Assembly (NCBI RefSeq): GCF_014237875.1
Contig: NZ_JACJVJ010000003.1
Coordinates: 124,001-188,000, forward strand
Direction of reading: 5' to 3'
Length of the DNA: 64,000 nt
Source of the DNA: Parasphingopyxis marina
GTDB lineage: Bacteria; Pseudomonadota; Alphaproteobacteria; Sphingomonadales; Sphingomonadaceae
Below the pieces are notes generated by a model. The model worked only from the letters and a program-made list of their open reading frames with translations. It was not told the DNA's origin and made no database searches. The position numbers and the translations under genes are program-made. Every line of letters starts with the position of its first letter. Position 1 is the stretch's first letter. Positions 5,912-29,461 of this stretch are shown piece by piece.

Positions 5912-6427
5912 ATGAGCGATCTGCCGCAAAAGGTGAAGGACTGGCTCGGCAAACCGGTCATAGTCGTTGACCATGTCGTGACCGTCGAACAGGGCCTCTG
6001 GACCAATTTCTGCGTCGCCGTCAAAGACGGAAATCCGCTGTACTGGGACTATTCAGTTTCGCGTGAGGAGACCGAGACGGTCATCGCGCCGCCGACGATG
6101 CTGCCGAGCTGGGCGATCGAGCATGAATGGATGCCGGGTCGGGAGGGGCCGGCGCTGCGCACCCTGGAATTGCACTTCATGGTGAAGGACGCGCTGGGCC
6201 TGAAAAACGGTCTCGTCACCGAAGTCGAGCTGGAACTGCACGATCCGCTTCGTGCAGGAGATTCGGTCAGGGCCGAGCAAATTCTGCGGAGCGTTGGCGA
6301 GGAAAGGGAAACCAGGCTGGGCCTGGGGCGCGACTGGGAAATCGACGTCGTCTATCGCAAGCCCGATGGCAGTCTGGCCGGCGTCCAGACCCTTCATCTT
6401 CTTGGCTATGGAAAGGTCGCGGCATGA
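5912..6427 (+). CDS. MaoC-like / FAS1-type dehydratase half (non-catalytic hot-dog subunit)
   Basis: 171 residues, resembling the N-terminal hot-dog of two-domain MaoC hydratases (opening KVKDWLGKPVIVVDHVVTVEQG, with FCVAVKDGNPLYWD). The catalytic D-x4-H motif is not visible, as expected for the structural half of a double hot-dog. The next gene, coupled by ATGA, supplies a half that carries the motif, so the two likely form a heterodimeric (R)-specific enoyl-CoA hydratase like ChsH1/ChsH2 of steroid degraders. A good Shine-Dalgarno (GAAGGGG) precedes the ATG. First gene of the long rightward operon; the 184 bases upstream hold the divergent promoters. Confidence 0.83.
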   Translation: MSDLPQKVKDWLGKPVIVVDHVVTVEQGLWTNFCVAVKDGNPLYWDYSVSREETETVIAPPTMLPSWAIEHEWMPGREGPALRTLELHFMVKDALGLKNGLVTEVELELHDPLRAGDSVRAEQILRSVGEERETRLGLGRDWEIDVVYRKPDGSLAGVQTLHLLGYGKVAA

Positions 6428-6891
6428 CGGCGCCTCCCACCCCGCATATCGGAATGAGCCTGCCCAAGCTCGACATTCCGATAACGCGCAAGCTCGTCAG
6501 CATGGGCGCTGCGGCGAGCCGCGACTGGCAGCCGCAGCACCACGATCCCGACTGGGCCAGGGACGCCGGCCTGCCCGACATCATAATGAACAACTATACC
6601 CAGGCGGGACTGATCAGCCGCTTCGTTACGGACTGGAGCGGTCCGTCCGGTCGGATCGGCAGGCTGCGTTTCTCAATGCGACGGCCGGTCTGTCCCGGCG
6701 GTACTGCGAAGTTTCGCGGGATGGTGGTCGATATCTCGGCCGAGGTGGACGCCATGACCTGGGTGGAGATCGATATCGAGATTTCGCTCGACGATACGCG
6801 GGCGACGACGGCGACGGTGCGCCTGGCGCTGCCGGCGACCGCGCGGTCCCGTTCGCCCTGGCACTGCCCTGCCGTGAAGTGGAGACCGTGA
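6424..6891 (+). CDS. MaoC-like hot-dog hydratase half (catalytic subunit)
   Basis: 155 residues beginning MTAPPTPHIGMSLPKLDIPI; the start is the ATG inside the ATGA overlap with the previous gene. SRDWQPQHHDPDWA carries the Asp-x4-His hydratase motif, followed by an IIMNNYTQAGLISRFVTDW helix and a hot-dog strand pattern. Role inferred: hydration of an enoyl-CoA in complex with the upstream half. The last ~20 residues (ATARSRSPWHC...) are less typical, so the C-terminus may be divergent. An 86-base gap separates it from the acyl-CoA dehydrogenase. Confidence 0.82.
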   Translation: MTAPPTPHIGMSLPKLDIPITRKLVSMGAAASRDWQPQHHDPDWARDAGLPDIIMNNYTQAGLISRFVTDWSGPSGRIGRLRFSMRRPVCPGGTAKFRGMVVDISAEVDAMTWVEIDIEISLDDTRATTATVRLALPATARSRSPWHCPAVKWRP

Positions 6892-6986
6892 GCGCCCCGT
6901 CGAATGTGAGCGCGAACAGAGTTGAGATGGAGACGGCGCCCCGCGCACATCCCTGAAAGCACGACTGGCTAGGGAAATTGCGCGAC

Positions 6987-8126
6987 ATGGAATTGGGACT
7001 GTCCGAAGAGCAGGCGCTGTTGCAGGAGACCTTGCGCCAGCTTTGCGAGGATCGGTTCCCGCTTGAGGCATTGCGCAGAACCGAGGCCGAGGAAGACGGC
7101 TTCCCGCGCGAGTTCTGGGACACTCTGTGCGAGCTGGGCGTGCCGGGCATCGCCATCGCCGAACGGTTCGGTGGCCTCGGAATGGGGCTTCTCGAATGTG
7201 CCCTGGTCCACGAGCAACTCGGCAGATTCCTGGTGCCGACCCCGCATTTCGTAAGTTCGATCCTCGCTGCTGAAGTGATCGCGCGTTCGGGCGAGGAGTC
7301 CTGGTTGTCGTTATGGTTGCCGGGAATAGCCGATGGCAGCCATATCATGACCGTGGCCACGCTCGAGTCCGGTGTCGGCCACGACCTGTCGGCCATGGGT
7401 GCCGAACTGACGCCTCTGGACGAAGGGGCACGGCTTTCTGGAACGAAGCACTTCGTGCCGTTTGCCAGTGTCGCGGACGATCTGCTCGTTCTCGCGCGCA
7501 ACCCGAAAACCGGTGCGGTAACCGCGGCGATAGTACCCCGGGAGGCCGAGGGCGTGTCCATCCGCAGACAGGAAAGTCTCGCGACGGAGCCCTGTTTTGA
7601 AATTGCATTCGATGATGTCGTTGTTGGCGCGGACCGAATTCTGTCAGGGGACGCCGATATCGGGGCCGCTTGGCATGGCGCAATGTGTACCGGGCTCGTC
7701 GTCCTCGCGGCGCAGGCCGTCGGCGCTGCCCAGCACATCCACGAAATCAGCACCGCCTATGCGAAAGAGCGGGAGGCGTTCGGCCGTCCCATCGGCGGTT
7801 TTCAGGCGATCGCCCATTATCTCGCCGATGCGATCGTCGAGATCGAGGGATGCCGCACGCTGGTCTATCAGGCGGCTTGGCGGCGGGACAACGGCCGCGC
7901 CTATCAATCCGCGGCGGCCATCGCGAAGCTGCAGGCCTGCGCGATGTTCCGCCGCGTTTCGGCGCTCGGTATCCAGGTCCATGGCGGGCTGGGGTACACG
8001 ATCGAAGCCGATCCCCAGCTCTTCTTCCGTCGCGCCAAACAGTGGCAGTTGCTCAACTGGGATGATGCGTTTCTGGAAGAGGAGATCGCCCGTCTGACGA
8101 TCGACGAGGAGCCGGAGCGTGTTTGA
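6987..8126 (+). CDS. acyl-CoA dehydrogenase, probable non-catalytic/small-subunit type
   Basis: About 379 residues with the acyl-CoA dehydrogenase fold: an N-terminal helical domain (LSEEQALLQETLRQL), a reduced beta domain, and the C-terminal FAD-contact helix EREAFGRPIGGFQAIAHYLAD. The C-terminal IQVHGGLGYTIEADPQLFFRRAKQ is typical of subunits of heteromeric FadE enzymes in steroid catabolism. I see no Glu at either usual catalytic site (helix G reads AWHGAMCTGLV; no YEGT-type motif). It probably pairs with another dehydrogenase. AGGGAAA at 6971-6977 sits nine bases before ATG 6987 and abuts an in-frame TTG at 6978, favouring the ATG. Confidence 0.85.
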   Translation: MELGLSEEQALLQETLRQLCEDRFPLEALRRTEAEEDGFPREFWDTLCELGVPGIAIAERFGGLGMGLLECALVHEQLGRFLVPTPHFVSSILAAEVIARSGEESWLSLWLPGIADGSHIMTVATLESGVGHDLSAMGAELTPLDEGARLSGTKHFVPFASVADDLLVLARNPKTGAVTAAIVPREAEGVSIRRQESLATEPCFEIAFDDVVVGADRILSGDADIGAAWHGAMCTGLVVLAAQAVGAAQHIHEISTAYAKEREAFGRPIGGFQAIAHYLADAIVEIEGCRTLVYQAAWRRDNGRAYQSAAAIAKLQACAMFRRVSALGIQVHGGLGYTIEADPQLFFRRAKQWQLLNWDDAFLEEEIARLTIDEEPERV

Positions 8127-8919
8127 AACGCTCGCCTATTCGGTCGCGGACGGCATCGCGGTCATCACGCTTGACCGGCCCGGTCGGCACAACGCGATCA
8201 ACCACCAGATGCATTGCGAACTGCCGCGCGTCTGGGAGGTTTTCGATCGGGATCCCGAAGCGATCGTCGCGATCGTGACGGGCAGCGGCGAGAAGGCGTT
8301 CTGCACCGGCGCCGATGTGGCCGATCTGCCGAAACTGGACAGGGAAAGCGCGCCCAGCCATCACGCCATTCGATGGACGGGGTTGCAGAACCGGGTCTGG
8401 AAGCCGGTGATTTGCGCGGTCAACGGGCTCACCGTCGGCGGAGGCCTCCATTTCGTCGCCGATGCCGATATCGTCCTGGCCAGCGAAAATGCGGCCTTTT
8501 GCGACAGCCATGTCAGTGTGGGTCTCGTCGCGGGGCTTGAACCGGTCTCGCTGGCGCGGCGGATGCCGCTCGAGGCCGTGCTGAGGCTTTCGCTCGTAGG
8601 ACGCGACGAACGCATGTCGGCCGATCGCGCGCTGGCGCTCGGCATGGTCGGGGAAGTCGTCGCGCCGGACTGTCTGATGAAGCGGGCCCGCGAGCTTGCC
8701 GCGTCGATCGCGAAGAATTCACCTTCGGCCATGGGGCGGACCAAGCGTGCAATCTGGCAGTCGCTCGAGCTGCCGTTGCACGAGGCGCTGGACGCCGCCT
8801 GGGAGGAAATCCTCGCGCATAACGAAGGGCCTGATTTCGCGGAAGGCGTGAACGCCTTTCTCGAACGCCGCGCGCCGCGCTGGGCGCCGTTGACGCCGGA
8901 ACAGCCCGATGAGCGGTGA
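8119..8919 (+). CDS. enoyl-CoA hydratase/isomerase (crotonase) family protein
   Basis: 266 residues. LDRPGRHNAIN, then AFCTGADVADL (oxyanion loop) and VNGLTVGGGLHFVADADIVL place it in the crotonase family. The segment CDSHVSVGLVAGLEPVSLARRM has His where hydratases have the first catalytic Glu, and the second position appears to be Arg in LRLSLVGRD. A non-hydratase reaction such as isomerisation or C-C cleavage is possible. GTG start, overlapping the dehydrogenase stop by 8 bases; its own stop overlaps the next crotonase by 11, a tightly coupled arrangement. Confidence 0.87.
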   Translation: MFETLAYSVADGIAVITLDRPGRHNAINHQMHCELPRVWEVFDRDPEAIVAIVTGSGEKAFCTGADVADLPKLDRESAPSHHAIRWTGLQNRVWKPVICAVNGLTVGGGLHFVADADIVLASENAAFCDSHVSVGLVAGLEPVSLARRMPLEAVLRLSLVGRDERMSADRALALGMVGEVVAPDCLMKRARELAASIAKNSPSAMGRTKRAIWQSLELPLHEALDAAWEEILAHNEGPDFAEGVNAFLERRAPRWAPLTPEQPDER

Positions 8920-9664
8920 GCGCGAAATCCGGATCGAGCGCGACGGAAATGTCGGCGTCATCACGCTCGATCGGCCCGACAGGCTCAACGCCTACACGCC
9001 CGATATGGGCGACGAACTCGTCGATGCGTTCAGGGCTTTAGCCGGCGATGCCGCCATCGGCGCGATCCTGCTGACCGGATCCGGGCGTGCCTTCTGCGCC
9101 GGGGCCGACCGGGCCTTTCTGGACGGCGAGCGCGGGCGCAACGGAAAGCGCATCGGCGAAGAGCATTTCATTTCCGATTTCGCGCCGGAACTATTTGCGA
9201 TTCCCAAACCCGTCATCGCCGCCGTCAACGGTCCGGCGGTCGGCATCGGTGCGACGATGCTGCTGCCGCTCGACATACGGATCGCGGGCAAGAGCGCGCT
9301 GTTCGGCTTTCCCTTCGCGCGGCTGGGGCTGATGCCCGGCATGGGTTCCACCTGCCTGCTGTCGGCGATCGTCGGCCTTTCGCGCGCCAAGGAAATTTTC
9401 CTGACCGGGGCGACACTCGACAGCGCAGCCGCGCTTGAGGCCGGACTGGTGAGCCGTGTCGTCGCCGATGCCGATCTTCCCGCCGCAGCCAACGAACTGG
9501 CCCGGGCGGTGGCGGGCAACGATGCCGCCGCGATGGCCGAGGTCAAGCGGGCCATGGCCCATTCCATGGCCGAGGAACTGGGACGGGCGATCGAGAACGA
9601 ACAGCGCGAGGCGCGCGCTCTTGCCCAGCGCCGCGCCGCGATCAGGAAAGACCAGGTGACGTGA
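8909..9664 (+). CDS. enoyl-CoA hydratase/isomerase (crotonase), isomerase-like active site
   Basis: 251 residues. LDRPDRLNAYTPDM, AFCAGADRAFL and VNGPAVGIGATMLLPLDIRI are the crotonase signatures. Alignment by eye: FGFPFARLGLMPGMGS lacks the first catalytic Glu (Phe in its place), while LSRAKEIFLTG keeps the second. One retained Glu is common in enoyl-CoA isomerases of the PaaG/ECI type, so double-bond shift is the better guess than hydration. It overlaps the preceding crotonase by 11 bases and its TGA shares one base with the ATG of the next gene. Confidence 0.87.
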   Translation: MSGEREIRIERDGNVGVITLDRPDRLNAYTPDMGDELVDAFRALAGDAAIGAILLTGSGRAFCAGADRAFLDGERGRNGKRIGEEHFISDFAPELFAIPKPVIAAVNGPAVGIGATMLLPLDIRIAGKSALFGFPFARLGLMPGMGSTCLLSAIVGLSRAKEIFLTGATLDSAAALEAGLVSRVVADADLPAAANELARAVAGNDAAAMAEVKRAMAHSMAEELGRAIENEQREARALAQRRAAIRKDQVT

Positions 9665-10128
9665 TGGATGAAATCCGGTTCGACGCCATTGCCGCGCTAG
9701 AGGCCCGAAAGTCGGAAGAGTTCGGTCCGTGGAGCGCCTCTGTCGAGGTGCCCCAGAGCATGATCGCGGCCTTCGCCGAGATGACCGGCGACCGCCAATG
9801 GATTCATGTCGACAAGGAACGCGCGGCGGCGAGCCCGTTCGGCACGACGATCGCGCACGGTTTCCTGGTGCTCGCGCTCTCGCCGGTTATCAAGAACAGC
9901 GCCGGCTACGTCGTCGTCGGCCACGGCAGCGCTCTCAACTACGGTCTCGAACGCGTGCGCTTCGTCGCGCCGGTTCCGGCGGGTGCCTCGGTCCACGGGC
10001 ATACGCGGATCGTCGACGTCGCCGAGGAAAAGGGCGGAACGATGCTCACCACCGGCGTCGCCATCCATGTCGTGGGGTCCGACAAGCCGTCGGTCTGCTT
10101 CGACTGGAAGATTCTCTACAGGGCGTGA
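9664..10128 (+). CDS. MaoC family (R)-specific enoyl-CoA hydratase
   Basis: 154-155 residues in a single hot-dog. MTGDRQWIHVDKERAA carries the Asp-x4-His hydratase-2 motif, followed by GTTIAHGFLVLALSP (hot-dog helix) and LNYGLERVRFVAPVPAGASVHG, the canonical MaoC pattern. It hydrates trans-2-enoyl-CoA to (R)-3-hydroxyacyl-CoA. The preferred start is ATG at 9664 (TGATG junction); an in-frame GTG at 9661 is the alternative. It sits directly upstream of the DUF35 protein; in steroid side-chain degradation a MaoC hydratase, DUF35 and an Ltp2-type thiolase-like aldolase act together. Confidence 0.9.
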   Translation: MDEIRFDAIAALEARKSEEFGPWSASVEVPQSMIAAFAEMTGDRQWIHVDKERAAASPFGTTIAHGFLVLALSPVIKNSAGYVVVGHGSALNYGLERVRFVAPVPAGASVHGHTRIVDVAEEKGGTMLTTGVAIHVVGSDKPSVCFDWKILYRA

Positions 10129-10133
10129 GCGGG

Positions 10134-10607
10134 ATGATCGAGACCATACCCCTTCCCGTGACGGACGACCCCGTGGATCGTGCCTTCTGGCAGGCCTGTC
10201 TCGAAGGCAGGCTGCTCGTCCAGCGGTGCGGCGATTGCGGCCATGTCCAGCATCCGCCTCGCGCAATGTGCCCGGTGTGCCGCTCGATGGAGCTCGGCTG
10301 GAGCGAATGCGTCGGCACGGGCACGATCTGGTCGTTCACCGTTCCGCGTCCGCCGCTGCTTCCGGCCTTTGCCGGACTTGTTCCCTATGTCGTGGTGATC
10401 GTCGAGCCCGACGACTTCCCCGGAATCCGGATCGTCGGCGCTCTGGCCGGGATCGAAGGGAACGGCATCGGCGGAATCGACCCTGAGACGATCGCGATCG
10501 GGGGTCCGGTTCGCCTCACCTTCGTCAGCCTCGCCGACGATGTCGCACTGCCCTGCTGGGCGCCCGTGGCGGCCGACGGCTCATTGGAAAAGGACGCGCA
10601 GCAATGA
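10134..10607 (+). CDS. DUF35 / OB-fold Zn-ribbon acyl-CoA-associated protein
   Basis: 157 residues. An N-terminal rubredoxin-like zinc ribbon (CGDCGHVQHPPRAMCPVC, near residues 29-46) is followed by an OB-fold segment (GTIWSFTVPRPPLLPAFAG, VPYVVVIVEPDDFPGIRIVG). DUF35 proteins bridge and activate thiolase-superfamily partners, as ChsH2 does for the aldolase Ltp2. The obvious partner is the Cys-less SCP2-type thiolase at 15946-17106 in the same operon. ATG at 10134 follows the MaoC stop by five bases; its stop forms ATGA with the dioxygenase start. Confidence 0.88.
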   Translation: MIETIPLPVTDDPVDRAFWQACLEGRLLVQRCGDCGHVQHPPRAMCPVCRSMELGWSECVGTGTIWSFTVPRPPLLPAFAGLVPYVVVIVEPDDFPGIRIVGALAGIEGNGIGGIDPETIAIGGPVRLTFVSLADDVALPCWAPVAADGSLEKDAQQ

Positions 10608-11587
10608 AGATCAAATCGCTCGGCTATATCGGCATCGGCAGTACGGACCCGGACGCTTGGCTGGCTTTCGGAACCGGCGTCCTCGGCATGATGCCGGCCC
10701 GCGCCATTCCGGGCGAGGGCTGGGGAGAGCCCGGCCAGCCGCGCGAACCGACGGGTAGGCCCGATGGCGTCGGCGCCGACGGGGCGGTCTATCTCAAGAT
10801 GGACGAGCGCCAGTGGCGTATCGCGATCCACCCGACAGACGGCGCGCGCGACCTGCTTTACATGGGCCTCGAACTCGACGGCCATATCGAGCTTGAGGCC
10901 GCCGTCGCCGAGCTGCGCGCCGCCGGGATCGAGGTACGCGAGGGCAGCGACGAGGATGCGTTCTGCCGCGCCGTGACGGGGATCGCCTATTGCGAGGATC
11001 CGTCGGGCAACGCGCTCGAGCTCTATTACGGGCCGACCACCGATTATAATTTCGCCTCGCCCGTGCCCGGTCTCGAATTCGTCGCCGGGCATCTCGGCGT
11101 CGGCCATTTCAACCTGTTCGTGCACAACCAGGCGGCCTGCTTCGATTTCTACACACGACTGCTGGGTTTCAAACTGTCCGACTATTTCCGCTACGGGCCG
11201 GGGGTCGCGCTCCAGTTCCTGCGTTGCAATCCGCGCCACCACAGCATTGCGATGATCGACATGGGCACGGGCAACGTCCTCCAGCACATGCTCGTCGAGA
11301 TGGCGACCGTCGACGATGTCGGCAAGGCGCTCGACCGGGCGAAGCGGGCCGGTATGAACGTCGTCAGCGCGCTGGGTCGGCACCGCAACGACGGGATGTT
11401 CTCCTTCTACATGCGTTCGCCCAGCGGTTTCGATGTCGAGGTCGGCTGCGGCGGCAAGCTGCTCGATGAGACCTGGTCGCCCAACGAGTTCTGCGAGGGC
11501 GATGTCTGGGGCCATGACGGGCTGATCGAGGCCGTGATCGAGGCCAGCGAGGTGGCGCGCGCGCGCGCAGGCCAGGGGGCGCCATGA
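10604..11587 (+). CDS. class I extradiol ring-cleavage dioxygenase (VOC superfamily)
   Basis: 327 residues in two VOC modules; the C-terminal one carries the metal site. Alignment to BphC by eye gives Fe ligands His168 (GHFNLF), His228 (LQHMLVEM) and Glu279 (FDVEVGCGG), second-sphere His213 (PRHHSIAM) and His260 (GRHRND), all in BphC-like spacing. The predicted reaction is O2-dependent meta-cleavage of a catechol to a 2-hydroxymuconate-type product. It overlaps, in ATGA fashion, the 2-oxoacid:ferredoxin oxidoreductase, which suggests the cleavage product is used there as a 2-oxoacid. This pairing is known from the estrogen 4,5-seco pathway (4-hydroxyestrone 4,5-dioxygenase OecC/EdcB). The exact catechol cannot be read from sequence. 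Confidence 0.9.
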   Translation: MKIKSLGYIGIGSTDPDAWLAFGTGVLGMMPARAIPGEGWGEPGQPREPTGRPDGVGADGAVYLKMDERQWRIAIHPTDGARDLLYMGLELDGHIELEAAVAELRAAGIEVREGSDEDAFCRAVTGIAYCEDPSGNALELYYGPTTDYNFASPVPGLEFVAGHLGVGHFNLFVHNQAACFDFYTRLLGFKLSDYFRYGPGVALQFLRCNPRHHSIAMIDMGTGNVLQHMLVEMATVDDVGKALDRAKRAGMNVVSALGRHRNDGMFSFYMRSPSGFDVEVGCGGKLLDETWSPNEFCEGDVWGHDGLIEAVIEASEVARARAGQGAP

Positions 11588-14500
11588 CCGGCGCGACGAT
11601 CGACACCGGCTATCGGCTCGAAGATCGCTACCGGCGCAAAACCGGGCGCGTCTTCCTGTCCGGCTCGCAGGCGCTGGTTCGCCTGCCGATGATGCAGCGG
11701 CAGCGCGATGCCGCAGCGGGGCTCGACACGGCCGGTTTCATCTCCGGCTATACCGGTTCGCCGCTCGGCGGATACGATATTGCGCTGAAACAGGTGCCCG
11801 AACTGCTCGAAGAGCATCACATCCATTTCGAGCCGGGGATCAACGAGGATCTCGGCGCCACCGCCGTCTGGGGCTCGCAGCAGGTCGGACTGTTCGGCAA
11901 TGCGCGCTACGATGGCGTGTTTGGCATCTGGTACGGCAAGGGCCCCGGCGTCGATCGCTCGGGCGACGCGCTCAAGCATGGCAGCTATTCGGGCACCTCG
12001 CCCAATGGCGGCGTGCTAGTGCTGGCGGGCGACGATCACGGCGCCAAGTCCTCGACGACGGCGCATCAGAGCGATCACGCCTTCATCCATTTCGGCATGC
12101 CTTATCTCAATCCCGCCTCCGTGCAGGACTATCTCGATCTCGGCATGCACGGCTTCGCGATGTCGCGCTATTCGGGTTGTTGGATCGGCATGAAATGCGT
12201 GACCGACACCATCGAGAGCAGCGCTTCGGTCGAGGTCGATCCGCACCGCGTCGAAATCGTCATGCCCGACGGAAGCAACGCCGCCGGACAGCGCAGCACG
12301 CGCTGGATGGTTCCCGCACTCGCCATCGAAAAGCGGCATTATCAGGAACGCTTACCGGCGGTGCAGGCCTATGTGCGCGCGAACGGCCTCAATCGGACGG
12401 TCATTGCTTCCTCCGTCCGTAATCTCGCGATCGTGACCACCGGCAAGGCCTATCTCGACGTCAGACAGGCGCTCGACGATCTCGGACTCGACGAGGCTCG
12501 CTGCGAAGCGCTGGGTCTTTCGCTGTTCAAGGTCGCCATGCCCTGGCCGCTGGAACCCGAGGGTGTGCTCGACTTCGTCGCGGGCCATCGCGAGATCCTC
12601 GTCGTCGAGGAAAAACGGCCGGTGATCGAGGATCAGATCGCGCGCCTGCTCGTCAACATGCCCGATCATCCCCTGTTGCTCGGCAAGCGCGACGAGGCGG
12701 GCGCCGAACTCGTTTCCGCCGAGGGCGAGACCGCTCCGCTGCCGGTCGCGCAGGCGATCGGCGCGCGGCTCGAAGCGCTGACCGCCGATGCCGACCTTTC
12801 GGCCCGACTGGCGGTGCTCGGCCGCGAAAATGCCGGGCCGGCGGCAAAGGCTGCCTCGCTTGCGCGCATGCCCAGCTTCTGCGCTGGCTGCCCGCACAAC
12901 CGTTCGACCAAGCTGCCCGACGGCAGCGTCGCCTTCGGCGGAATCGGTTGCCACGGCATGGCGACCTTCCTACCCGAACGAAACACGCCGACTCTGTTCC
13001 AGATGGGCGGGGAGGGCGCGCCTTGGATCGGCATCGCGCCGTTCACTGAAACGCCGCACATCTTCCAGAATCTCGGCGACGGCACCTATTATCATTCGGG
13101 CCTGCTCGCGATCCGCGCCGCCGTCGCCGCCGGCGTCAACATCACCTACAAGATCCTCGTCAACGATGCGATCGCGATGACGGGCGGCCAGGAAATCGCC
13201 GGCAAGATGCGCGTCGACACGCTGACCCGCCAGGTCCATGCCGAGGGCGCCCGTGCCATCGCCGTCGTCACCGACCATCCCGAACAATATGGGGCGGAAG
13301 CCGATTTCGCGCCGGGCACTACCGTCCATCACCGCGACGATCTCGACGAGGTCCAGCGCCGGATGCGCGAGATCGAAGGCGTGACGGCGATCGTCTACGA
13401 CCAGAATTGCGCGACCGAGCTCCGCCGCCGGCGCAAGCGCGGTAAGGCGGAGGATCCCGATTGCCGGCCCTTCATCGCCAGCCGCGTGTGCGAAGGCTGC
13501 GGCGATTGCTCCGTCCAGTCCAACTGCATCGCCATCGAACCGGTCGAGACCGATTTCGGCCGCAAGCGGCGGATCAACCAGTCTGCCTGCAACAAGGATT
13601 TCTCCTGCATCGAGGGATATTGCCCAAGCTTCGTCACCGTTCATGGCGGGCGGCCCCGCAAACGCGATAGCGGAGCCGAGCAGGGCCATGCCGCGCTGCT
13701 CGCTGCCCTGCCCGAACCCTCTGCAGCTCCGGTGGAGGCGCCGTTCAGCCTGCTCGTTACGGGTATCGGCGGCTATGGCGTCGTCACGCTCGGCGCGATC
13801 CTCGGCATGGCGGCCCATCTCGAAGGCAAGGGCTGTTCGGTGCTCGACGTTGCCGGGCTGGCTCAGCGCAACGGGCCCGTCACCAGCCACGTTCGTATCG
13901 CGGCTACGCCCGAAGCGCTCCAGGCGACCCGCATCGCCCGCGCCGATCTCGTCATCGGCAGCGACATCGTCGTCACCGCGAGTGCCGACGTACTGGGCCG
14001 GATGCGGCCGGGCCTGACGCGCGCCGTGGTCAACAGCCATGTCGCGCCGACTTCCGATTTCGCGACCAATCCCGATCTCGATCTCGCTGCGGATTCGATG
14101 GAAGCGTTGGTCGTCGAGCGCACCGAGAAAGCGGAGTTCCTCGAAGCGAGCCGGCTTGCCTATGCGCTGATGGGCAACGAGATCGCAGCCAATCTGATGC
14201 TGGTCGGCTATGCCGCGCAGCGCGGCTGGCTGCCGGTGTCGCTAGAGGCGCTCGACCGTGCGATCGAACTTAACGGTACCGCGGTCGGGATGAACCGCGC
14301 GGCCCTCGCATGGGGTCGGATCGCGGCCCATGATCCGGAACGGGTGGCGGCGCCGATCTCCCCCGAGTCGGCCGACATCGGGGCGGGCGAAAGCCTCGAC
14401 GCGTTGATCGAGCGCAACGCCGCCGAACTCGTTCGCTACCAGGACGAAGCCTATGCCGCGCGTTATCGCGAACTCGTCGAGCGCGCACGCACTGCCGAGA

Positions 14501-15048: not shown

Positions 15049-15067
15049 CCAATATGGGACAGACGGA

Positions 15068-17106: not shown

Positions 17107-17115
17107 AGCGAAAGG

Positions 17116-18277: not shown

Positions 18278-18488
18278 GCGCGCCTCGACGGCAGATGCGA
18301 GTTCAATGTGAGCAAAGTTTCAGTTTTTCTGCTATCGCGAATGGCGTCCACCGCAACCCCGAACACGGATGGTGTGGCGGAGTGTACCAGGTCGGCTCGG
18401 CGACGATGATCGACGCACGCTATGACTGGCGTGCGATCAGGGTGCCGAGATTGATGCTTCCGGCCGGCGAATATGGAGAGGAAAACCG

Positions 18489-19109: not shown

Positions 19110-19127
19110 CAAGAACGGGATGCGTAA

Positions 19128-20318: not shown

Positions 20319-20331
20319 AATTCGGTTCGGC

Positions 20332-21564: not shown

Positions 21565-21579
21565 GGCGCCGGAGGCGGA

Positions 21580-22764: not shown

Positions 22765-22777
22765 GTCTTCGGACCTT

Positions 22778-23596
22778 TCATCGGGTCTTGCTGGACAAGG
22801 CGGCGACGGCCGCGGCAACCGCCGCGTCATGTTCGCTGCCGTGATGGGCGAGCGCCTGGAGGCTCGCGCAGTGATCGAGAAAATCGTCGAGCGGCGTATG
22901 GCCGCTCAAGCGGAGCAACTGCTTGGCGAGCCGCAGCGCCCTGGGCGGCTGGCGGGCGAAACTGGCGGCGAGCGACTGTGCGCGCCCGGCCAGCGTTTCG
23001 GGTTCGCAAAGCTCCATGAACAGGCCGAATTCATGGGCTTCGGCCGCTTCGACGATCCGGCCGGAATAGGTCATTTCCGCGGCGCGCTGCGGGCCGATGA
23101 CGCGGGGCAGGAACCAGGCGCCGCCGTCGCCGGGAACGATGCCCAGAGTGACGAAGGATTCGGCGACCTTCGCGCGCGTCGAGCCCAGGCGGATATCGCA
23201 CATGCACGCAAGATCGAGCCCCGCCCCGATGGCGGCGCCGTTTACCGCTGCGACGACCGGCACCTCGACCCGGTAGACGGCCCGGCTCATTTCCTGAATG
23301 CCCCGACGATAGGCATTACGGATTTCGGCGGGCTCGCCGCCGAACATGCCCGTCTTTTCGGCCATGTTCTTGATGTTGCCGCCGGCCGAAAAGGCGCGGC
23401 CATCGCCGGTAATGACAAGCGCGCCGACCCGTTCGTCCTCGCTTGCCCAGTTGCAGGTGGCGATGATGTCGTCGATCAGCGCGGTGCCGGTCAGAATGTT
23501 GCGGACGTCGTCGCGGCACAAGTGCAATGTCGCCACGCCGTCTTCGATGTCGAGCGTGCTGTCGCGGCATTCGGGAAGGGGAAGGGCCGTCGTCAT
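22778..23596 (-). CDS. enoyl-CoA hydratase/isomerase (crotonase) family protein
   Basis: 272 residues from the ATG at 23596, which sits in an ATGA overlap with the upstream dehydrogenase; a longer in-frame extension is low-complexity and unlikely. AFSAGGNIKNMAEKTGMFGG (oxyanion loop), VNGAAIGAGLDLACMCDIRL, and VTLGIVPGDGGAWFLPRVIG are the family marks. The first catalytic Glu position appears to be Phe, while IGPQRAAEMTYSG retains the second, suggesting an isomerase-like site. Belongs to the 25781-20332 leftward operon between dehydrogenase and P450. Confidence 0.88.
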   Translation of the reverse strand: MTTALPLPECRDSTLDIEDGVATLHLCRDDVRNILTGTALIDDIIATCNWASEDERVGALVITGDGRAFSAGGNIKNMAEKTGMFGGEPAEIRNAYRRGIQEMSRAVYRVEVPVVAAVNGAAIGAGLDLACMCDIRLGSTRAKVAESFVTLGIVPGDGGAWFLPRVIGPQRAAEMTYSGRIVEAAEAHEFGLFMELCEPETLAGRAQSLAASFARQPPRALRLAKQLLRLSGHTPLDDFLDHCASLQALAHHGSEHDAAVAAAVAALSSKTR

Positions 23597-24636
23597 TCGT
23601 TTCTCTTCCGTTCGGTTTCGAGCAGCCGATCGCTGCGATCGGTCAGCCAATGCCAGAGCGGCTTCGGCCGTTCGGCCAGAGCGATCCGGCCGACGGTTCG
23701 CGCCCAATAGGTCTCGTTGCCGAAATCCCGGCCCCAGGCCCGCGCCCGCAACGTGAAGGCGTGGAGCGCATATTCGCGCGTGAAACCGATGGCGCCGTGT
23801 ACCTGATGGGCGATATCGGCGGCGATGTCGGCGGCTCTGCTCGCCCGCCATTTCGCCGCGGCGATTTCGAAACCGGCCTCGCCGAGCGTCGCCGATTGGC
23901 AGGCGCTCGCCGCGGCGCATGACGCAGCTGCGTTTTCCTCGGCGAGGATGGCGAGCTGGTGCTGGATCGCCTGGAAACGGGCAAGCGGCCGGCCGAACTG
24001 GCGGCGTTCGCGGACGTGATCGATGGCGAGGATAAGCATGGTCTCGATCGCGCCGGCGATCTGGCAGGCGCGTAGCAGGGCCGCTTCGGCGAAGAACATG
24101 GCCGTGCCTTCGGAGAGTGGGCCGTCGGCTATCGGATCGAGCGCGTGGAAGACGAGACTGGCGCGCGGATCGCCCGACAGAAGATTGCGCTCCCTTGTTT
24201 CGGCCCCGGCTGCGTCGAGCAGCGACCAGCGGTCGGGCCGCAGGAGCAGGATCCAGTCCGCCCGATCCGTCCAGGGCAGGTCGTTCAGCGTCGTCGCGCT
24301 TTCGTCCGGTCCTTCCTTCGCAAAGGCGAACAGGCCCACGCCTTCGGGAGCCTTATGACCGATACGGCCGAGCCAGGCCCGGGCAAGCACGGTTTCGCCG
24401 AGCGGCAAGCCGAGACCGTGCGCGCCCAGGGCCCTGAAGACCACGCCCGCATCTTCCCAGTCGCCGCCGAAGCCTCCGGCTTCCTCCGGGATCATGAGCA
24501 GTGGCAGGCCGATCGCTTCGATCGATTGCCAGTGTCCGTCGAATTCCTTGCCGCCGTCTTCGCGTGCCCCGACCTCGGCGAGGTTCGCGAAGAGCCTGTC
24601 GACCGTTTCCGTCAGTATGGTTCGCCGGTCGTTCAT
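23593..24636 (-). CDS. acyl-CoA dehydrogenase, probable non-catalytic small subunit
   Basis: 347 residues, shorter than full dehydrogenases. PLLMIPEEAGGFGGDWEDAGVV and VRERRQFGRPLARFQAIQHQLA are recognisable, and IAHQVHGAIGFTREYALHAFTLRARAWGRDFG is the C-terminal segment. The beta domain is degenerate, and neither the helix-G nor the YEGT catalytic Glu is visible. This is the look of the beta subunit in alpha2-beta2 FadE complexes. The adjacent upstream gene (24633-25781), joined by ATGA, is the likely partner. Confidence 0.86.
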   Translation of the reverse strand: MNDRRTILTETVDRLFANLAEVGAREDGGKEFDGHWQSIEAIGLPLLMIPEEAGGFGGDWEDAGVVFRALGAHGLGLPLGETVLARAWLGRIGHKAPEGVGLFAFAKEGPDESATTLNDLPWTDRADWILLLRPDRWSLLDAAGAETRERNLLSGDPRASLVFHALDPIADGPLSEGTAMFFAEAALLRACQIAGAIETMLILAIDHVRERRQFGRPLARFQAIQHQLAILAEENAAASCAAASACQSATLGEAGFEIAAAKWRASRAADIAADIAHQVHGAIGFTREYALHAFTLRARAWGRDFGNETYWARTVGRIALAERPKPLWHWLTDRSDRLLETERKRNE

Positions 24637-25781
24637 CTGAGACCGAGCCCCCGGGCGATGATACCGCGCAGAATCTCGCGAGTTCCGCCTCTCAACGAAA
24701 AGCTCGGCGACGCGGCCGTCAGATAGGATAGCGTCTCGCGCAGGTCTCCGTCGTCATGCCCCCACGCGTCGTCATCGTAAGCGGCTTGCAGGTCGCGCGG
24801 GACGGACTGCTCGAACCGGGCGCCGAGATCCTTCACGATCGACGCCTCGATCATCGGATTTTCCCCCGATTCGAGCTTGGCCGCCACGGCGAGCGACATC
24901 TGCCGCAGCGTCCATAGCTCGGCCGCCCAGGCTCCGGTCAGTGCAGTCAGGGTATTGCCCGGTTGGTCGCAAAGCGTCGCCAGCAGCTGTTCGATCAGGA
25001 CATGGCTGCTCAGAAAGCGTTCGGGGCCGCTGCGTTCGAGCGCGAGTTCGGCGGTAACCTGGTTCCAGCCTTCGCCTTCCTGGCCGAGCAGCTGTTCTGC
25101 GGGAACGAAGACGTCGTCGAGGAATATTTCGCAGAAATGCGCGTCGCCCGTCTGGTCCTCGATCGGGCGGACGGTGACGCCGGGCGAGGCGAGCTCGATG
25201 ACGAGCTGACTGAATCCTGCGTGACGGTCGTCGCCTGCATCTGCGCCGGTGCGAACGAGCGCGATCATGTAGTGGCAGTGCTGGGCGTGCGTCGTCCAGA
25301 TCTTCGAACCGTTAACGCGCCAGCCGCCTTCGGTGGCGGTCGCGCGGGTGCGGAGCGATGCGAGATCCGATCCGGCTCCGGGCTCGCTCATGCCGATGCA
25401 GAAATAGAGCTCGCCCGCGGCGATACGCGGCAGCATGTCCGCCTTCAACGCCTCGTTGCCATAGCGCAATAGCAGCGCGCCGCTTTGCCGGTCGGCAATC
25501 CAGTGCGCGGCGACGGGCGCCCCCGCGGCGAGCAGCTCTTCCACGACCGCATATCGCTCGAGCTGGCTGGCGCCCCGGCCGCCCAGCTCTTCAGGCCACG
25601 TCATCCCGATCCAGCCGCGCTGGCCCAGGGCACGGCTGAACTCCTCGTCCCAGCCGGACCAGCTACGAGCACGACGGGCGGGCGTCATGCCCTTGACCGA
25701 GGAAGCGAAAAAGGCACGCAATTCCGCGCGCAGGCCAGCGGCGGCTGGCGCCGTTCTGATGGGAGGAAAGTTCGGTGTCAT
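24633..25781 (-). CDS. acyl-CoA dehydrogenase, probable catalytic subunit
   Basis: 382 residues with full domains: WIGMTWPEELGGRGAS, YFCIGMSEPGAGSDLASLRTRA (FAD loop), GWRVNGSKIWTTHAQHCHYMIALVRT and the C-terminal SFSLRGGTREILRGIIARGLGLR. The late YEGT Glu is Gly; LALERSGPERF in helix G provides a candidate base. ATGA coupling to the smaller dehydrogenase makes a heteromeric enzyme likely, as for the FadE pairs that act on steroid side chains or rings. First gene of its leftward group; 158 bases upstream separate it from the SDR, and a promoter could lie there. Confidence 0.9.
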   Translation of the reverse strand: MTPNFPPIRTAPAAAGLRAELRAFFASSVKGMTPARRARSWSGWDEEFSRALGQRGWIGMTWPEELGGRGASQLERYAVVEELLAAGAPVAAHWIADRQSGALLLRYGNEALKADMLPRIAAGELYFCIGMSEPGAGSDLASLRTRATATEGGWRVNGSKIWTTHAQHCHYMIALVRTGADAGDDRHAGFSQLVIELASPGVTVRPIEDQTGDAHFCEIFLDDVFVPAEQLLGQEGEGWNQVTAELALERSGPERFLSSHVLIEQLLATLCDQPGNTLTALTGAWAAELWTLRQMSLAVAAKLESGENPMIEASIVKDLGARFEQSVPRDLQAAYDDDAWGHDDGDLRETLSYLTAASPSFSLRGGTREILRGIIARGLGLR

Positions 25782-25939
25782 TGCTATGTGCTTCCCTGCC
25801 GGCCTAGGACTCCCTCCTTGGCCTGATGCCCGTTGCCCTGCGGTTGTCGCCGGATTCGAGAGCTATCGAAGCCGGTCGTCACCAACACCTCGCATTGGGC
25901 TCACTTGTCGTGAGGAGGGCCGAGGACACGGGCATCGCT

Positions 25940-26713
25940 TCAGGTCGCGATGTGGAAGCCGCCATCGACCGAGAGATGCTGGCCGGTGACGTAGCTCGCC
26001 GCGTCGGTAAGGAAGAACCAGGTCGCAGGTGCCACTTCCGCGGGCGTCGCGAAGCGTCGGAGCGGAATCTGGGCCAGATAGCGGTCGCGGAACCGTTCGT
26101 TCCGGATCGTGTCCGTCATCGGCGTTTCGACGACGCCGTAGCAGATGCTGTTGACCGTGATGTTGTGCCGCGCCCATTCGCGCGCCGCGCTCATCGTCAA
26201 TCCGAGCACGCCGGATTTCGCCGCGCCGTAGTTGATCTGGCCGATCGTGCCGCGGCGCCCCGCATCGGACGAGATATTGGCGATGCGGCCGGGGGCGGGA
26301 TCGCCTTTTTCCGCCTTTTCGATGAGCGCGCGGCCCACGGCGCGCAGGCACAGAAAGGCGCCGGTGAGATTGACGTCGATCACCTGCTGCCAGTCTTCCA
26401 GCGTCATTTCGTGCGCCATCGCGGCGCGGACGATGCCGGCATTGTTGACCAGCCCGTGCAGGTCGCCGAACCGGGCGAACGTGTCCGTTACGACGGTGTC
26501 GACCTCGGCCTCCACCGCGACATTGGCGGCGGCGCATTCGAGGTTCGGATTGTCGATCTCAGCCTTGGTCTGTTCCAACACCTTGGCATTGATGTCGACG
26601 AGCATAATGTTGGCGCCGCGCTCGAGCCCGAATTCGGCAAGCGCCCGGCCCACGCCTTGCGCGCCGCCGGTGACGATATAGGTGCGGCCTTCTAGCCCGA
26701 AGGAATCGTTCAT
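25940..26713 (-). CDS. short-chain dehydrogenase/reductase (SDR)
   Basis: 257 residues. TGGAQGVG at 15-22, LVDIN after beta-2 (Asp, NAD-type), NNAG at 90-93, catalytic Ser149, Tyr162 and Lys166 (YGAAK), and the C-terminal GGFHIAT in the substrate-pocket region. Closest in look to 3-oxoacyl-ACP reductase/hydroxysteroid-dehydrogenase-type SDRs. It follows the thiolase gene by 32 bases on the same strand and may oxidise the hydroxyacyl-CoA that the thiolase then cleaves. Confidence 0.88.
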   Translation of the reverse strand: MNDSFGLEGRTYIVTGGAQGVGRALAEFGLERGANIMLVDINAKVLEQTKAEIDNPNLECAAANVAVEAEVDTVVTDTFARFGDLHGLVNNAGIVRAAMAHEMTLEDWQQVIDVNLTGAFLCLRAVGRALIEKAEKGDPAPGRIANISSDAGRRGTIGQINYGAAKSGVLGLTMSAAREWARHNITVNSICYGVVETPMTDTIRNERFRDRYLAQIPLRRFATPAEVAPATWFFLTDAASYVTGQHLSVDGGFHIAT

Positions 26714-26745
26714 CTCAGTCTCTCGTTTTTGAGGGGGGCGCGCGA

Positions 26746-27945
26746 TCAGCAGGTTCCGATGACGGAAATGCTGCAGACATTCTTATTGGGGAAGCCGCCC
26801 AGATTGTGGGTCAAGCCGAGCTTCGGAGCGTCGAGCTGGCGCTCGCCGGCCTTGCCGCGGAGTTGCTGGTATATTTCGTAGACCATCCGCAGCCCGGTGG
26901 CGCCGATCGGATGGCCGAAACATTTGAGGCCGCCGTCGATATTGCAGGGCACCTGGCCGTCGGCGTCGAACGTGCCGGCGAGCACCTCGCGCCAGCCATG
27001 GCCGACATCGGCGAGCCCCAGATCTTCCATCGTCACGAGCTCGGTGATCGAGAAACAGTCGTGCACCTCGATCAGGTCGAGCTCTTCGCGCGGGTTGGTG
27101 ATGCCGGCCTCGCGATAGGCGCGCTGCGAGGCAATACGCGTCGTCAGCGCATAGCTTCCGTCCCATTCGTCAAAGCCGATTTCGGAGCCGTTGCTGAGCG
27201 CGAGCTGCATCGACTTGACGGTCACGAGCGGGCCGTCGCCGCCGATTTTCTCGGCAATAGCGGGCGTGGTGACGATCGCGCAGGCCGATCCGTCGCTAAC
27301 CCCGCAGCAATCGAACAGGCCGAGCGGATAGGCGATCATCGGCGCCTTGAGAATCTTCTCCTTGTCGATGCGGCTGCGCAGATGCGCCTTGGGGTTCTTC
27401 GCGCCGTTCTCGTGGCTCTTCCACGAAACATGGGCCATGGCTTCCTTGAGCTGGTCCATTTCGATGCCATGGGCCGCGACATAGGCGCTCGCGAACTGGG
27501 CGAAGCTGCCCGGCGCGGTGATGCTGGGGAACCACAGGTCCTCGAACGTGCCCTTTGTGCGTTCGGGCAGGCCGCCATAGCCGGTGTCCTTGAGCTTCTC
27601 GACCCCCAGCGCTAGCGCGATGTCATAGGCGCCCGATGCCACACCGTAGACGGCACCGCGGAGCGCCTCGGTTCCGGTCGCACACATATTCTCGACGCGG
27701 GTCGCCGCGATGTTGGGGAGGCGCAGGGTCGAGGTCAGCGACAGAGCCGACTTGCCGGGCCCCTGATCGTCCGATGACAGGCCGTACCAGGCCGCCTCGA
27801 TCCGGTCGCGTTCGATATTCGCGTCGGTGAGGGCCTCGCCGAACGCTTCGACTATCAGGTCCTCGGCGCTGCAATCCCAGCGCTCGCCGAAGCGAGAACA
27901 GCCCATGCCCAATATGGCGACCTTGTCGCGAATGCCTTCAGCCAT
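26746..27945 (-). CDS. thiolase family protein (SCP-x type, Cys present)
   Basis: 399 residues from ATG 27945; the start overlaps the preceding gene by 8 bases and a longer upstream extension is low-complexity. VENMCATGTEALRG carries the acyl-accepting Cys (residue 88), HDCFSITE the second conserved His region, CFGHPIGATGLRM the catalytic His, and NVCSISVIG a C-terminal Cys. It looks catalytically complete, so thiolytic cleavage of a 3-oxoacyl-CoA is likely. Its partner gene encodes an HMG-CoA-synthase-like/DUF35 fusion, recalling the archaeal thiolase-HMGCS-DUF35 assembly. Confidence 0.9.
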   Translation of the reverse strand: MAEGIRDKVAILGMGCSRFGERWDCSAEDLIVEAFGEALTDANIERDRIEAAWYGLSSDDQGPGKSALSLTSTLRLPNIAATRVENMCATGTEALRGAVYGVASGAYDIALALGVEKLKDTGYGGLPERTKGTFEDLWFPSITAPGSFAQFASAYVAAHGIEMDQLKEAMAHVSWKSHENGAKNPKAHLRSRIDKEKILKAPMIAYPLGLFDCCGVSDGSACAIVTTPAIAEKIGGDGPLVTVKSMQLALSNGSEIGFDEWDGSYALTTRIASQRAYREAGITNPREELDLIEVHDCFSITELVTMEDLGLADVGHGWREVLAGTFDADGQVPCNIDGGLKCFGHPIGATGLRMVYEIYQQLRGKAGERQLDAPKLGLTHNLGGFPNKNVCSISVIGTC

Positions 27946-29461
27946 GGGAAGCCCCTTCCATTTCCTTGTCGGCGGTGGTGTGTGTCGAGAGCTCGCGCGG
28001 GGGGACGGCCTTCCAGCAATAGCGGCGGAAACCACGCCGATCGTCGACGTCCTTGAGGCGGAACTGCATCGCCAGGGGCGCGCCGACGGCGAGCTCGCTT
28101 GGCTCGAAATCGCTGAATTCGAGCATCGCGACACCGCCACCCGCGAAGCGGACGTTCCCGTACATGAGCGGTGGATTGAACGAGAGCGCCAGCCAGTCTT
28201 CGGTGAAGGATTTCACGGACGCCGGCTTGTCGGCGAAAGGCTCGGAAACCTGCGAATCCGTAGCCCGGCAACCGGGGTTCACGCACACTCGGCTTTTCGG
28301 GAATTGCGGCGTACCGCATGCCGTGCAGCGGCCGCCGATACACCCGGTTACGGTGTCGCGGTGGCGGAAAAAGGCCGATTGCGCCGTGCGGTTGTCGCGT
28401 TCGGCACGCATGCCCCAGTCCATCGAGACATGGCCGTTGAAGGAGAGGAAGCGGAGATAGTTCCCGTCCTCGACGCCGTCCGCCAGCATGGCATCCGCGC
28501 CGGTCATCCCGGACGCCCTGCCGATTGTGTCGGTTGCACGAAAGAGCAGGGCCTCGGCTCCCTGCCCATAGCCGAGGAGGAGAATGAACTCGCCCGGTGC
28601 CGCGGACTGGAGGGCCTTGGTCAGCAACAGCAGGGGATGGGCGGTGCCGGTATCGCCGCATTCGGCGTGAAGGTCTGGCGTCACCGCGCCCTCGGGGATA
28701 CCGCAATGTTTCGCTATCGTTCGCGCATTGCGGTTTCCGAGGCCCGCCGCGACGAAATGCGCGATGTTCTCGCCCCCGATCCCGGCATCTTCGATCAGGC
28801 CGCGGATGGGCCCGGGGACGATATGCAACAGCCCTGCGTCCCTCGCCCAGCGTTCCTCGAGTTGATAATCGAACTGGGCGTCTGACGAACGATAGTGGTC
28901 GGTGAAATCCACCGAAACGGCGCGGCGCGCCACAAACTCCGCGAGCGGATCGCCTTCGCCGACGACGATGGCGGCGGCCGCGTCGCCGATGCGAAGCTCT
29001 TGCGGGCCGCCCGGCCGCGTCAGGCGCTTGTCCGCGGCGACGACCAGCGTCTCGCCCGGGCGTTCGAGCGCCATGCGCAGCGCGCCGACGCCGGCCTTGA
29101 GCGATCCGCCCATATCGGCGGTGCAGGTGTTTTCGGACAGCGACGCGGCTTCGGCGATCACGCCGGCATTCTGGCGATCGGCGAACGGCATCGTGGTCGA
29201 GGCGAAGACGAGCATGTCCGGGGCGTTGTCTTCCGGGCGCTCGGCCAGCGCATACCGGGCCGCCGCCACGGCCATCGTCAGGCTGTCCTCGTCGTGCGAG
29301 CAGATCGCCTTGTGGCCGTGAGCGGTCGCGGCGAGGCCCGGATTGGCCCAACTGTTCGCCGAGCAGATCGTCCGTCGCGCCAGCCGGCGACGCGGAACAT
29401 AGGCGCCGAACGAAATGATTCCGCGTTGCTGCAATGCGATCTCCTGTGCGCTTTGGGCCAA
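27938..29461 (-). CDS. HMG-CoA synthase/KAS III-like protein fused to a DUF35 Zn-ribbon/OB domain
   Basis: 507 residues. Residues 1 to about 350 have the HMG-CoA-synthase-like thiolase fold (ISFGAYVPRRRLAR, DMGGSLKAGVGALRMAL, HAECGDTGTAHPLLLL). The C-terminus, from about 365, is DUF35: zinc ribbon CTACGTPQFPKSRVCVNPGC, then OB-fold strands. By eye the synthase nucleophile (Cys in ACKAGTAG-type motifs) is Leu in SLKAG, and the FHxP His is not found, so HMG-CoA synthesis is doubtful. It overlaps the thiolase gene by 8 bases and probably forms a complex with it, as scaffold, lyase or acyl-transfer partner. Confidence 0.83.
   Translation of the reverse strand: MAQSAQEIALQQRGIISFGAYVPRRRLARRTICSANSWANPGLAATAHGHKAICSHDEDSLTMAVAAARYALAERPEDNAPDMLVFASTTMPFADRQNAGVIAEAASLSENTCTADMGGSLKAGVGALRMALERPGETLVVAADKRLTRPGGPQELRIGDAAAAIVVGEGDPLAEFVARRAVSVDFTDHYRSSDAQFDYQLEERWARDAGLLHIVPGPIRGLIEDAGIGGENIAHFVAAGLGNRNARTIAKHCGIPEGAVTPDLHAECGDTGTAHPLLLLTKALQSAAPGEFILLLGYGQGAEALLFRATDTIGRASGMTGADAMLADGVEDGNYLRFLSFNGHVSMDWGMRAERDNRTAQSAFFRHRDTVTGCIGGRCTACGTPQFPKSRVCVNPGCRATDSQVSEPFADKPASVKSFTEDWLALSFNPPLMYGNVRFAGGGVAMLEFSDFEPSELAVGAPLAMQFRLKDVDDRRGFRRYCWKAVPPRELSTHTTADKEMEGASHG

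Follow-up and report, generated by a model that had tools for sequence, protein, structure and literature searches.

The question raised by this locus is whether a gene cluster built like the estrogen-degrading edc cluster also degrades estrogens. The cluster lies in a 64,000-nucleotide stretch of Parasphingopyxis marina DNA (RefSeq assembly GCF_014237875.1; bases 124001-188000 of contig NZ_JACJVJ010000003.1, hereafter C3), which is called the window below and belongs to a genome of 3.31 Mb rated 100% complete. A sequence-only reading had seen a candidate estrogen-type 4,5-seco cluster at 5912-29461 and had named a structurally similar phenol as the fallback substrate. The lead was good, since the gene content mirrors that of the estrogen edc cluster, and of the two substrates the fallback seems the better reading. 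The locus appears rather likely to be a catabolic regulon for a carbocycle-fused phenol, which would apply edc-type chemistry, though probably to something other than an estrogen. The natural substrate is probably a different phenol because key elements of the estrogen route are lacking here or have been exchanged for others. This reading is supported by homology, enzyme clades, synteny, an operator-like motif and the lack of any IpdA, IpdB or EchA20 orthologue found in the genome. We read the cluster as a sister pathway, in which a fused phenol other than an estrogen would undergo edc-type ring cleavage and which would possess its own lower half.

In the estrogen pathway as PMC7793797 and PMC12507874 describe it, estrone is hydroxylated by EdcA and 4-hydroxyestrone is cleaved by EdcB; the 2-oxo acid is presumed to be decarboxylated and activated with CoA by EdcC, and the suggested path from there to HIP involves beta-oxidation-like enzymes and a ring hydrolase. 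In PMC7793797, a compound that fits pyridinestrone acid was detected in an edcC mutant. The edc cluster of Caenibius (Novosphingobium) tardaugens comprises 17 genes in the passages of PMC7793797 and PMC8700777 that describe it. In tblastn searches, 15 of these 17 genes have a specific homologue in the window. On this count the edc-like 4,5-seco type proposed at the outset stands, whereas an estrogen as the substrate is not supported, in view of the enzyme clades, the markers of the steroid C/D-ring (HIP) pathway, the TetR regulator and the TonB receptor. The two edc genes without a specific homologue encode the TetR-type EdcR and the TonB-dependent receptor EdcT, of which no orthologue was found: at E 1e-5 and a coverage of half its length, the window TetR matches nothing in the edc loci, and the window receptor shares 27-32% identity with receptors there, as any receptor would.

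The best-kept proteins are the short-chain dehydrogenase (SDR) SDR1 (63-66%), the acyl-CoA dehydrogenase (ACAD) ACAD2 (60-66%), the lipid-transfer-type thiolase/aldolase Ltp1 (55-64%), the crotonase-fold enzyme ECH1 (53-60%) and the fused 2-oxoacid:ferredoxin oxidoreductase, or IOR (52-56%, the IOR of AXB having run off the end of its stretch). The edc accessory set, with its small vicinal-oxygen-chelate (VOC) protein, MaoC pair, ChsH2-like partner with Ltp, enoyl-CoA hydratase (ECH), SDR, ACAD, and thiolase with an HMG-CoA-synthase-like protein (HMGS), is represented at 32-66%. The window HMGS shares 32-35% with its edc counterparts, which share 55-76% mutually, but 54% with a second cluster of Croceicoccus estronivorus. 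The likeness to edc and to cluster II of Sphingomonas sp. KC8 covers the P450, the extradiol dioxygenase, the fused IOR, the VOC protein, the MaoC pair, the Ltp/ChsH2 and thiolase/HMGS pairs, the ACAD, SDR and ECH genes, a TetR and a TonB receptor. However, the P450 and the dioxygenase belong to other clades, the TetR and the receptor are non-orthologous, the operator is another one, and the HIP marker genes were not found in the window genome, whereas an acyl-CoA synthetase (ACS), SDR_a, ECH_a, SDR2, an acetyl-CoA hydrolase/transferase (CoAT), ECH3, ACAD3, ACAD4, SDR3 and ACAD5 are additional to edc and KC8.

The enzymes named in the sequence-only reading are all encoded. The cytochrome P450 (21580-22764, minus strand) matches Pfam p450 and carries the heme loop FGTGLHFCLG, and the class I extradiol dioxygenase (10604-11587, plus strand; BphC_D1 and Glyoxalase domains) retains its full set of metal ligands, H168, H228 and E279, the 2-His-1-Glu site of class I (VOC) enzymes, as well as H212/H213, H260 and Y269 in the second sphere, with roles presumed by analogy with BphC. 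Assignment to the BphC or HsaC equivalogues was rejected, the scores being 262 against a cut-off of 366 and 227 against 450, respectively. The IOR (11584-15048, plus strand) has 1154 amino acids and scores 1604 bits against PRK13030 (cut-off 816), which places it in the fused indolepyruvate ferredoxin oxidoreductase family; it was correctly described as coupled, since its first 4 bp are shared with the end of the dioxygenase gene. In the comparison with EdcC suggested at the outset, it proved to be a fused enzyme of that type adjoining the dioxygenase, with 57% identity to those of C. tardaugens (a 999-amino-acid piece), KC8 and ES2-1, and about 64-65% to that of the second cluster of C. estronivorus.

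The comparison with the other two edc enzymes went against an estrogen assignment. The window dioxygenase shares 43-49% with the five proteobacterial edc dioxygenases (C. tardaugens, KC8, C. estronivorus, S. estronivorans and ES2-1), those of C. tardaugens and KC8 sharing 53% with each other, close to the 52.3% given in print. In a tree of 44 rows with outgroups, it falls in a 15-row clade (support 96/93), and the edc dioxygenases form part of a 22-row clade (98/89) without it; in a second tree of 45 rows, from which the outgroups of the first were omitted, the window clade has 16 rows (94/87), including G085, and the edc side has 22 (99/95), including G107, G220 and G061. The window P450 shares 35-39% with the five edc P450s, whose mutual identities are 54-77%. 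In a tree of 29 rows it belongs to a six-row clade (100/99), whereas all five edc P450s group with the presumed AedA in a different clade of 20 rows (96/97). The window P450 is therefore outside the clade of EdcA, the estrone 4-hydroxylase, and the dioxygenase is outside the EdcB/OecC clade in both trees. OecB had also been suggested for the P450 comparison; in the part of PMC12507874 that deals with it, however, the KC8 protein is described not as a P450 but as a putative flavin-dependent monooxygenase.

A search of 72,556 plasmid records gave the dioxygenase (50%) and the IOR (55%) the same top match, plasmid p3 of Novosphingobium ES2-1, which degrades estrogens. On p3 the dioxygenase concerned is RS20245, an additional copy that adjoins a different P450; RS20340, the dioxygenase of the edc-like block of ES2-1, shares 42-43%. 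The second P450-dioxygenase pair of p3, RS20240/RS20245, adjoins edc genes, and RS20245 forms a separate supported group with a Novosphingobium metagenome-assembled genome (MAG) and locus L058 in both dioxygenase trees. The position of this group, as well as that of the presumed AedB, varies between the two trees.

The HIP pathway of the estrogen 4,5-seco group is not represented by its markers in this genome. With IpdA of ES2-1 as the query, no orthologue was found in the genome, the best match being 28% over residues 12-205 of 296; IpdB has no match at E 0.001; and for EchA20 no orthologue was found, the best match reaching 46%, a type of match that C. tardaugens also has beside one of 69%. 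On the opposite side of the dioxygenase tree, IpdA is present at 58-88% in nine genomes, and the best matches in three genomes of the same genus without the cluster are 26%, 31% and 38%. IpdA is missing in 7 of the 14 tested genomes of the window clade against none of the 15 outside it, all of which carry it at 57-88% (Fisher p=0.002; clade rows L046 and L060 omitted, three of the seven lacking genomes without a stated completeness, and Sphingomonas colocasiae, which has both dioxygenase types, counted in the window clade). The seven are the source genome, Parasphingopyxis lamellibrachiae, Sphingosinicella microcystinivorans, Qipengyuania sp. ABI-127-1 and MAGs of Sphingosinicella, Sphingomonadales and Caulobacteraceae. 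When only genomes stated to be at least 99% complete are counted, IpdA is missing in four of five against none of seven (p=0.01), and IpdB is missing in the same seven genomes as IpdA and present in all six outside genomes tested. Direct membership in edc was rejected on the clades, the HIP markers that were not found and the non-orthology of TetR and TonB receptor.

The cluster is a separate unit from edc, and it recurs as such in other bacteria. P. lamellibrachiae DSM 26725, of the same genus (56-90%), and S. microcystinivorans DSM 19791 (49-87%) each carry the full set of 28 genes in an unchanged order; since the order is repeated for 28 of 28 genes in two other genomes, the cluster is not a chance assembly. 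Gene order is also shared with the clusters of S. colocasiae and Qipengyuania sp. ABI-127-1; across these four sister clusters the dioxygenase is 69-80% and the IOR 71-79% identical to those of the window, and the P450 is 72-76% identical in the three where it was read. Within 10-kb flanks, most of the upper part is present in Qipengyuania, Halioglobus, Haliea and Spongiibacter.

A further trait that separates the unit from edc is a 17-bp motif, GCGAGTTYAAKSTGAGC, which a comparison of intergenic regions found to be common to the window and P. lamellibrachiae. The window holds five operator-like sites: ACGAGTATGATCTGAGC at 2452-2468 (minus strand; weight-matrix score 22.1), one between ACS and MaoC1 at 5792-5808 (minus; 18.9), one upstream of TetR at 18297-18313 (plus; 27.0, an exact pattern match), one upstream of HMGS at 29535-29551 (minus) and one upstream of ACAD5 at 35390-35406 (plus). 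The pattern GCGAGTTYRANSTGAGS has three exact matches in the source genome, all in the cluster, upstream of TetR, HMGS and ACAD5, which are exact by construction because the pattern was derived from those sites; one match with a single mismatch lies elsewhere, and when up to two mismatches are allowed the count is 37, compared with 19 for the reversed control. A weight matrix built from the sites of the window and P. lamellibrachiae, with a cut-off score of 18, detects 22 sites in 13 of the 15 other sister loci, with at least one in each of the 11 genomes, against 0-1 sites in six shuffles. It also detects four sites in three loci of the second clusters of C. estronivorus and S. colocasiae, and none in 10 edc/aed loci of six organisms or in nine other dioxygenase loci. 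Apart from one at 429 bp, the sites in sister loci lie 48-230 bp ahead of the nearest gene match, which is TetR, HMGS, ACAD5, ACS/MaoC1, P450, ACAD1 or a TonB receptor. A matrix made from the five window sites reaches at least 17 in 14 of 15 sister sets (16.9 in L046) and in none of the 14 control sets, of which the C. tardaugens stretch comes closest with 16.8, a cut that was picked after the scores had been seen and that leaves a narrow gap for gammaproteobacterial loci (17.1-17.8 in three). The cluster TetR (18489-19109, plus strand; Pfam TetR_N), the presumed binder, probably controls the regulon through GCGAGTTYAAKSTGAGC. A promoter and terminator scan of 2400-22000 gave no excess over chance.

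The named genes are all real, being long open reading frames with codon bias, and the 28 of the cluster form four blocks: 2527-5727 on the minus strand (SDR_a, ECH_a, ACS), 5912-20318 on the plus strand (MaoC1 through ACAD2), 20332-29461 on the minus strand (CoAT through HMGS) and, after an interruption, 35463-37033 on the plus strand (ACAD5, PaaI). The region marked out by the sequence-only reading was thus correct in its genes and too short in its extent, as the unit starts near 2450 and resumes at 35463-37033. About 18 acyl-CoA or CoA-thioester genes could be assigned by Pfam, NCBIfam or homology, in agreement with the many that had been announced.

Carbocycle-fused phenols are the likely substrate class because genes for ring cleavage, decarboxylation, second-ring opening and the Ltp/ChsH2 step have homologues in edc-type pathways. 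In the proposed route, the P450 would form a catechol, which the extradiol dioxygenase would cut adjacent to the ring fusion, and the IOR would then convert the resulting 2-oxo acid into an acyl-CoA by oxidative decarboxylation. Chain shortening and hydrolytic opening of the second ring could be performed by ACAD1 (6978-8126; Pfam, 36-46% to edc) and ACAD2 (19128-20318), ECH1 (8119-8919) and ECH2 (8909-9664; crotonase fold, 40-57% to edc), and SDR1 (15068-15949). Hydration by MaoC1 (5912-6427; N-terminal type, 33-44% to the edc MaoC gene, weak HadA match) and MaoC2 (6424-6891; Pfam MaoC, 39-43% to edc) would be followed by retro-aldol cleavage to a ketone by Ltp1 (15946-17106; PRK07855 at 520 bits, cut-off 469) and its ChsH2-like zinc-ribbon/OB-fold partner (10134-10607; Pfam zf-ChsH2 and OB_ChsH2_C, 36-41% to edc).

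The ketone may then enter a lower route encoded in the same cluster rather than the HIP route. Candidates for this lower half are ACS (4096-5727; Pfam AMP-binding), CoAT (20332-21564), ECH_a (3305-4099; Pfam ECH_1), ECH3 (22778-23596), ACAD3 (23593-24636), ACAD4 (24633-25781), SDR3 (25940-26713), the thiolase Ltp2 (26746-27945; 40-42% to edc) with HMGS (27938-29461; Pfam ACP_syn_III_C), and ACAD5 (35463-36626; 87-89% in sister clusters), with ECH3, ACAD3, ACAD4 and SDR3 named from homology and synteny. We suggest that the extra genes of the cluster stand in for HIP degradation; S. colocasiae, which is without four of the extra genes, has HIP genes nearby. Aromatic sesqui- or diterpenoids may be candidates for the substrate.

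Several observations weigh against this reading, and some of them bear on the strongest of its rivals, a diverged but true estrogen 4,5-seco cluster that would take estrogens to HIP or to earlier acids and then stop or hand the product on. The overall gene set matches edc and the nearest plasmid relatives come from estrogen degraders. Moreover, the presumed AedB lies outside both proteobacterial clades in the tree with outgroups, at weak forks (87/82, 89/74, 86/32), and joins the side of the window in the tree without them (98/94), so that cleavage of 4-hydroxyestrone could be ancestral and retained in the window cluster. AedA and EdcA share only 37% identity and yet both appear as estrone 4-hydroxylases in the relevant parts of PMC12507874 and PMC7793797, so low identity alone does not exclude a function. 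For this comparison, AedA and AedB were taken to be the adjoining P450 and dioxygenase on plasmid plas2 of Prescottella equi DSSKP-R-001, the naming being drawn from a review table. IpdA is carried at 55-70% by the other seven of the 14 genomes of the window clade (S. colocasiae, Halioglobus, Haliea, Spongiibacter and the MAGs KLAP49, L042 and L048). S. colocasiae has 24 of the 28 genes, lacking ECH1, ECH3, ACAD3 and ACAD4, and an ipdAB-echA20 set about 28 kb from its cluster. The motif is non-palindromic and more like a direct repeat (GYGAG, 11-bp spacing); TetR operators, by contrast, are usually palindromic, so that TetR is a presumed binder only. Finally, the fused-ring substrate and the order of steps in the route are drawn from homology alone. 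Nevertheless, an estrogen pathway seems unlikely here, since the window P450 is outside the clade that contains both EdcA and the presumed AedA, orthologues of IpdA, IpdB and EchA20 were not found in the genome, and the extra genes are conserved under a distinct regulator and operator.

Still less probable is a pathway for a non-fused alkylphenol or a biphenyl-like phenol. A related locus in Pseudomaricurvus alkylphenolicus and the sub-threshold scores of the dioxygenase against the BphC and HsaC models speak in its favor. However, P. alkylphenolicus groups with edc (52-53%), no operator match was obtained in its locus, and no alpha/beta-hydrolase of the BphD/HsaD type occurs among the 28 cluster genes, to which that search was confined, whereas the IOR, crotonase-type ECH and Ltp-ChsH2 genes are retained instead. 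The slimmest chance is that of a steroid-like phenol with C/D-type rings that the cluster itself would degrade by a route other than HIP, since HIP is treated as the common intermediate of steroid degradation in the sections of PMC7793797 and PMC12507874 that discuss it, even though the lower-pathway genes are conserved with the upper module where no IpdA or IpdB was found.

Two other known systems help to place the fused-phenol pathway favored here. The aed cluster of actinobacterial estrogen degraders, represented by P. equi plas2, resembles the window in combining a P450, a class I extradiol dioxygenase and beta-oxidation genes, but it has no IOR in the stretch shown, and its dioxygenase and P450 share 39% and 37% with those of the window. 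The known estrogen degrader C. estronivorus MH-B5 has a second, uncharacterised cluster at NZ_JRQQ01000001, about 606-640 kb (606000-639726). This one shares the operator motif and Ltp1 (71%), Ltp2 (77%), SDR3 (63%), ECH_a (67%), ACAD5 (67%) and TetR (38%); it differs in that its P450 and dioxygenase group with edc and that ECH1 and SDR1 have no close counterpart there. The impression is of a shared backbone on which the pair that attacks the ring was swapped.

In P. lamellibrachiae, S. microcystinivorans and S. colocasiae, a TonB receptor lies beside SDR_a; this receptor is missing in the window. With the S. microcystinivorans receptor as the query, five of six other sister genomes have a receptor at 65-97% (39% in KLAP49). 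The source genome has no close copy, the full-length matches reaching 28-30% at best and partial ones up to 41%. In P. lamellibrachiae and S. colocasiae, the counterpart of the 2452 motif lies ahead of the receptor gene, whereas in the window (region 2240-2560) that motif is followed by a terminator-like hairpin (2319-2292, minus strand; 12 pairs then six T, 0.2 expected in shuffles of the stretch) and then no receptor gene. By these comparisons the usual receptor is lost and an orphan promoter is left at 2452. The open reading frame 1976-2356, which was compared with TonB receptors only, was set aside as the gene served by this promoter because it spans the hairpin.

Just beyond the region first marked out, and as noted there, a TonB receptor is encoded at 29951-32419 (plus strand), which is orthologous neither to EdcT nor to the receptor of the sister clusters (25-27%). 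Relative to those clusters it is inserted between HMGS and ACAD5 together with a DUF7064/7065 protein (32428-33777, plus), without a match in the sister loci searched, and a protein of the APH-type phosphotransferase family (33787-35277, plus), not seen in the clusters of P. lamellibrachiae, S. microcystinivorans and S. colocasiae. The HMGS-ACAD5 gap holds no gene in S. microcystinivorans and S. colocasiae and a Rieske gene in P. lamellibrachiae. The receptor at 29951 may, as a guess, be the replacement for the lost one.

The remaining cluster genes are SDR_a (2527-3303; Pfam adh_short and synteny), MaoC3 (9661-10128; a PaaZ MaoC-domain match below cut-off), the VOC protein (17116-17523; 37-41% to edc), SDR2 (17567-18277), without a close counterpart in the edc loci, and a PaaI-type thioesterase-like protein (36638-37033; named by eye, synteny). 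At the window edge, 31-1523 holds a Rieske oxygenase gene of the VanA_C type and a MarR-like regulator; the Rieske gene has a 38% relative beside HMGS in the P. lamellibrachiae cluster. The only other dioxygenase of this kind found in the source genome is at C3:34444-35175, in a different-looking aromatic gene group (C3:31.5-38.4 kb); its assignment as HsaC was set aside, as its neighbors, judged by eye and with no family search, suggest another aromatic route. The ipdAB-echA20 set near the S. colocasiae cluster (C15:285000-359143) is the second such set of that organism. The L048 contig, titled as a Klebsiella pneumoniae MAG, bears an environmental-type catabolic locus, and its label is probably wrong.

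Searches of the open full-text literature, the body covered as distinct from subscription papers, brought up no title or abstract on this cluster type, and the same literature yielded nothing on degradation of phenolic diterpenoids, tocopherols or cannabinoids with such genes, or on estrogen degradation in the marine gammaproteobacteria. On a broader and more tentative view, to which we would give a little under an even chance, an undescribed regulon across alpha- and gammaproteobacteria could use meta-cleavage of the estrogen type, followed by oxidative decarboxylation, to mineralise a natural phenol that is ring-fused but non-steroidal, with its own lower pathway and operator, and would represent the environmental sister of estrogen degradation, either as its origin or in parallel. 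According to the portion of PMC12507874 concerned with such surveys, the 4,5-seco pathway has been traced in activated sludge by way of oecC homologues as a marker. Dioxygenase, P450 and IOR genes of the present type could be annotated and counted as markers of estrogen degradation, and since a near-complete edc-like set occurs in genomes in which HIP markers were not found, marker surveys may overcount. The 17-bp motif, the TetR regulator and the named strains together provide a ready test system for finding the substrate class.

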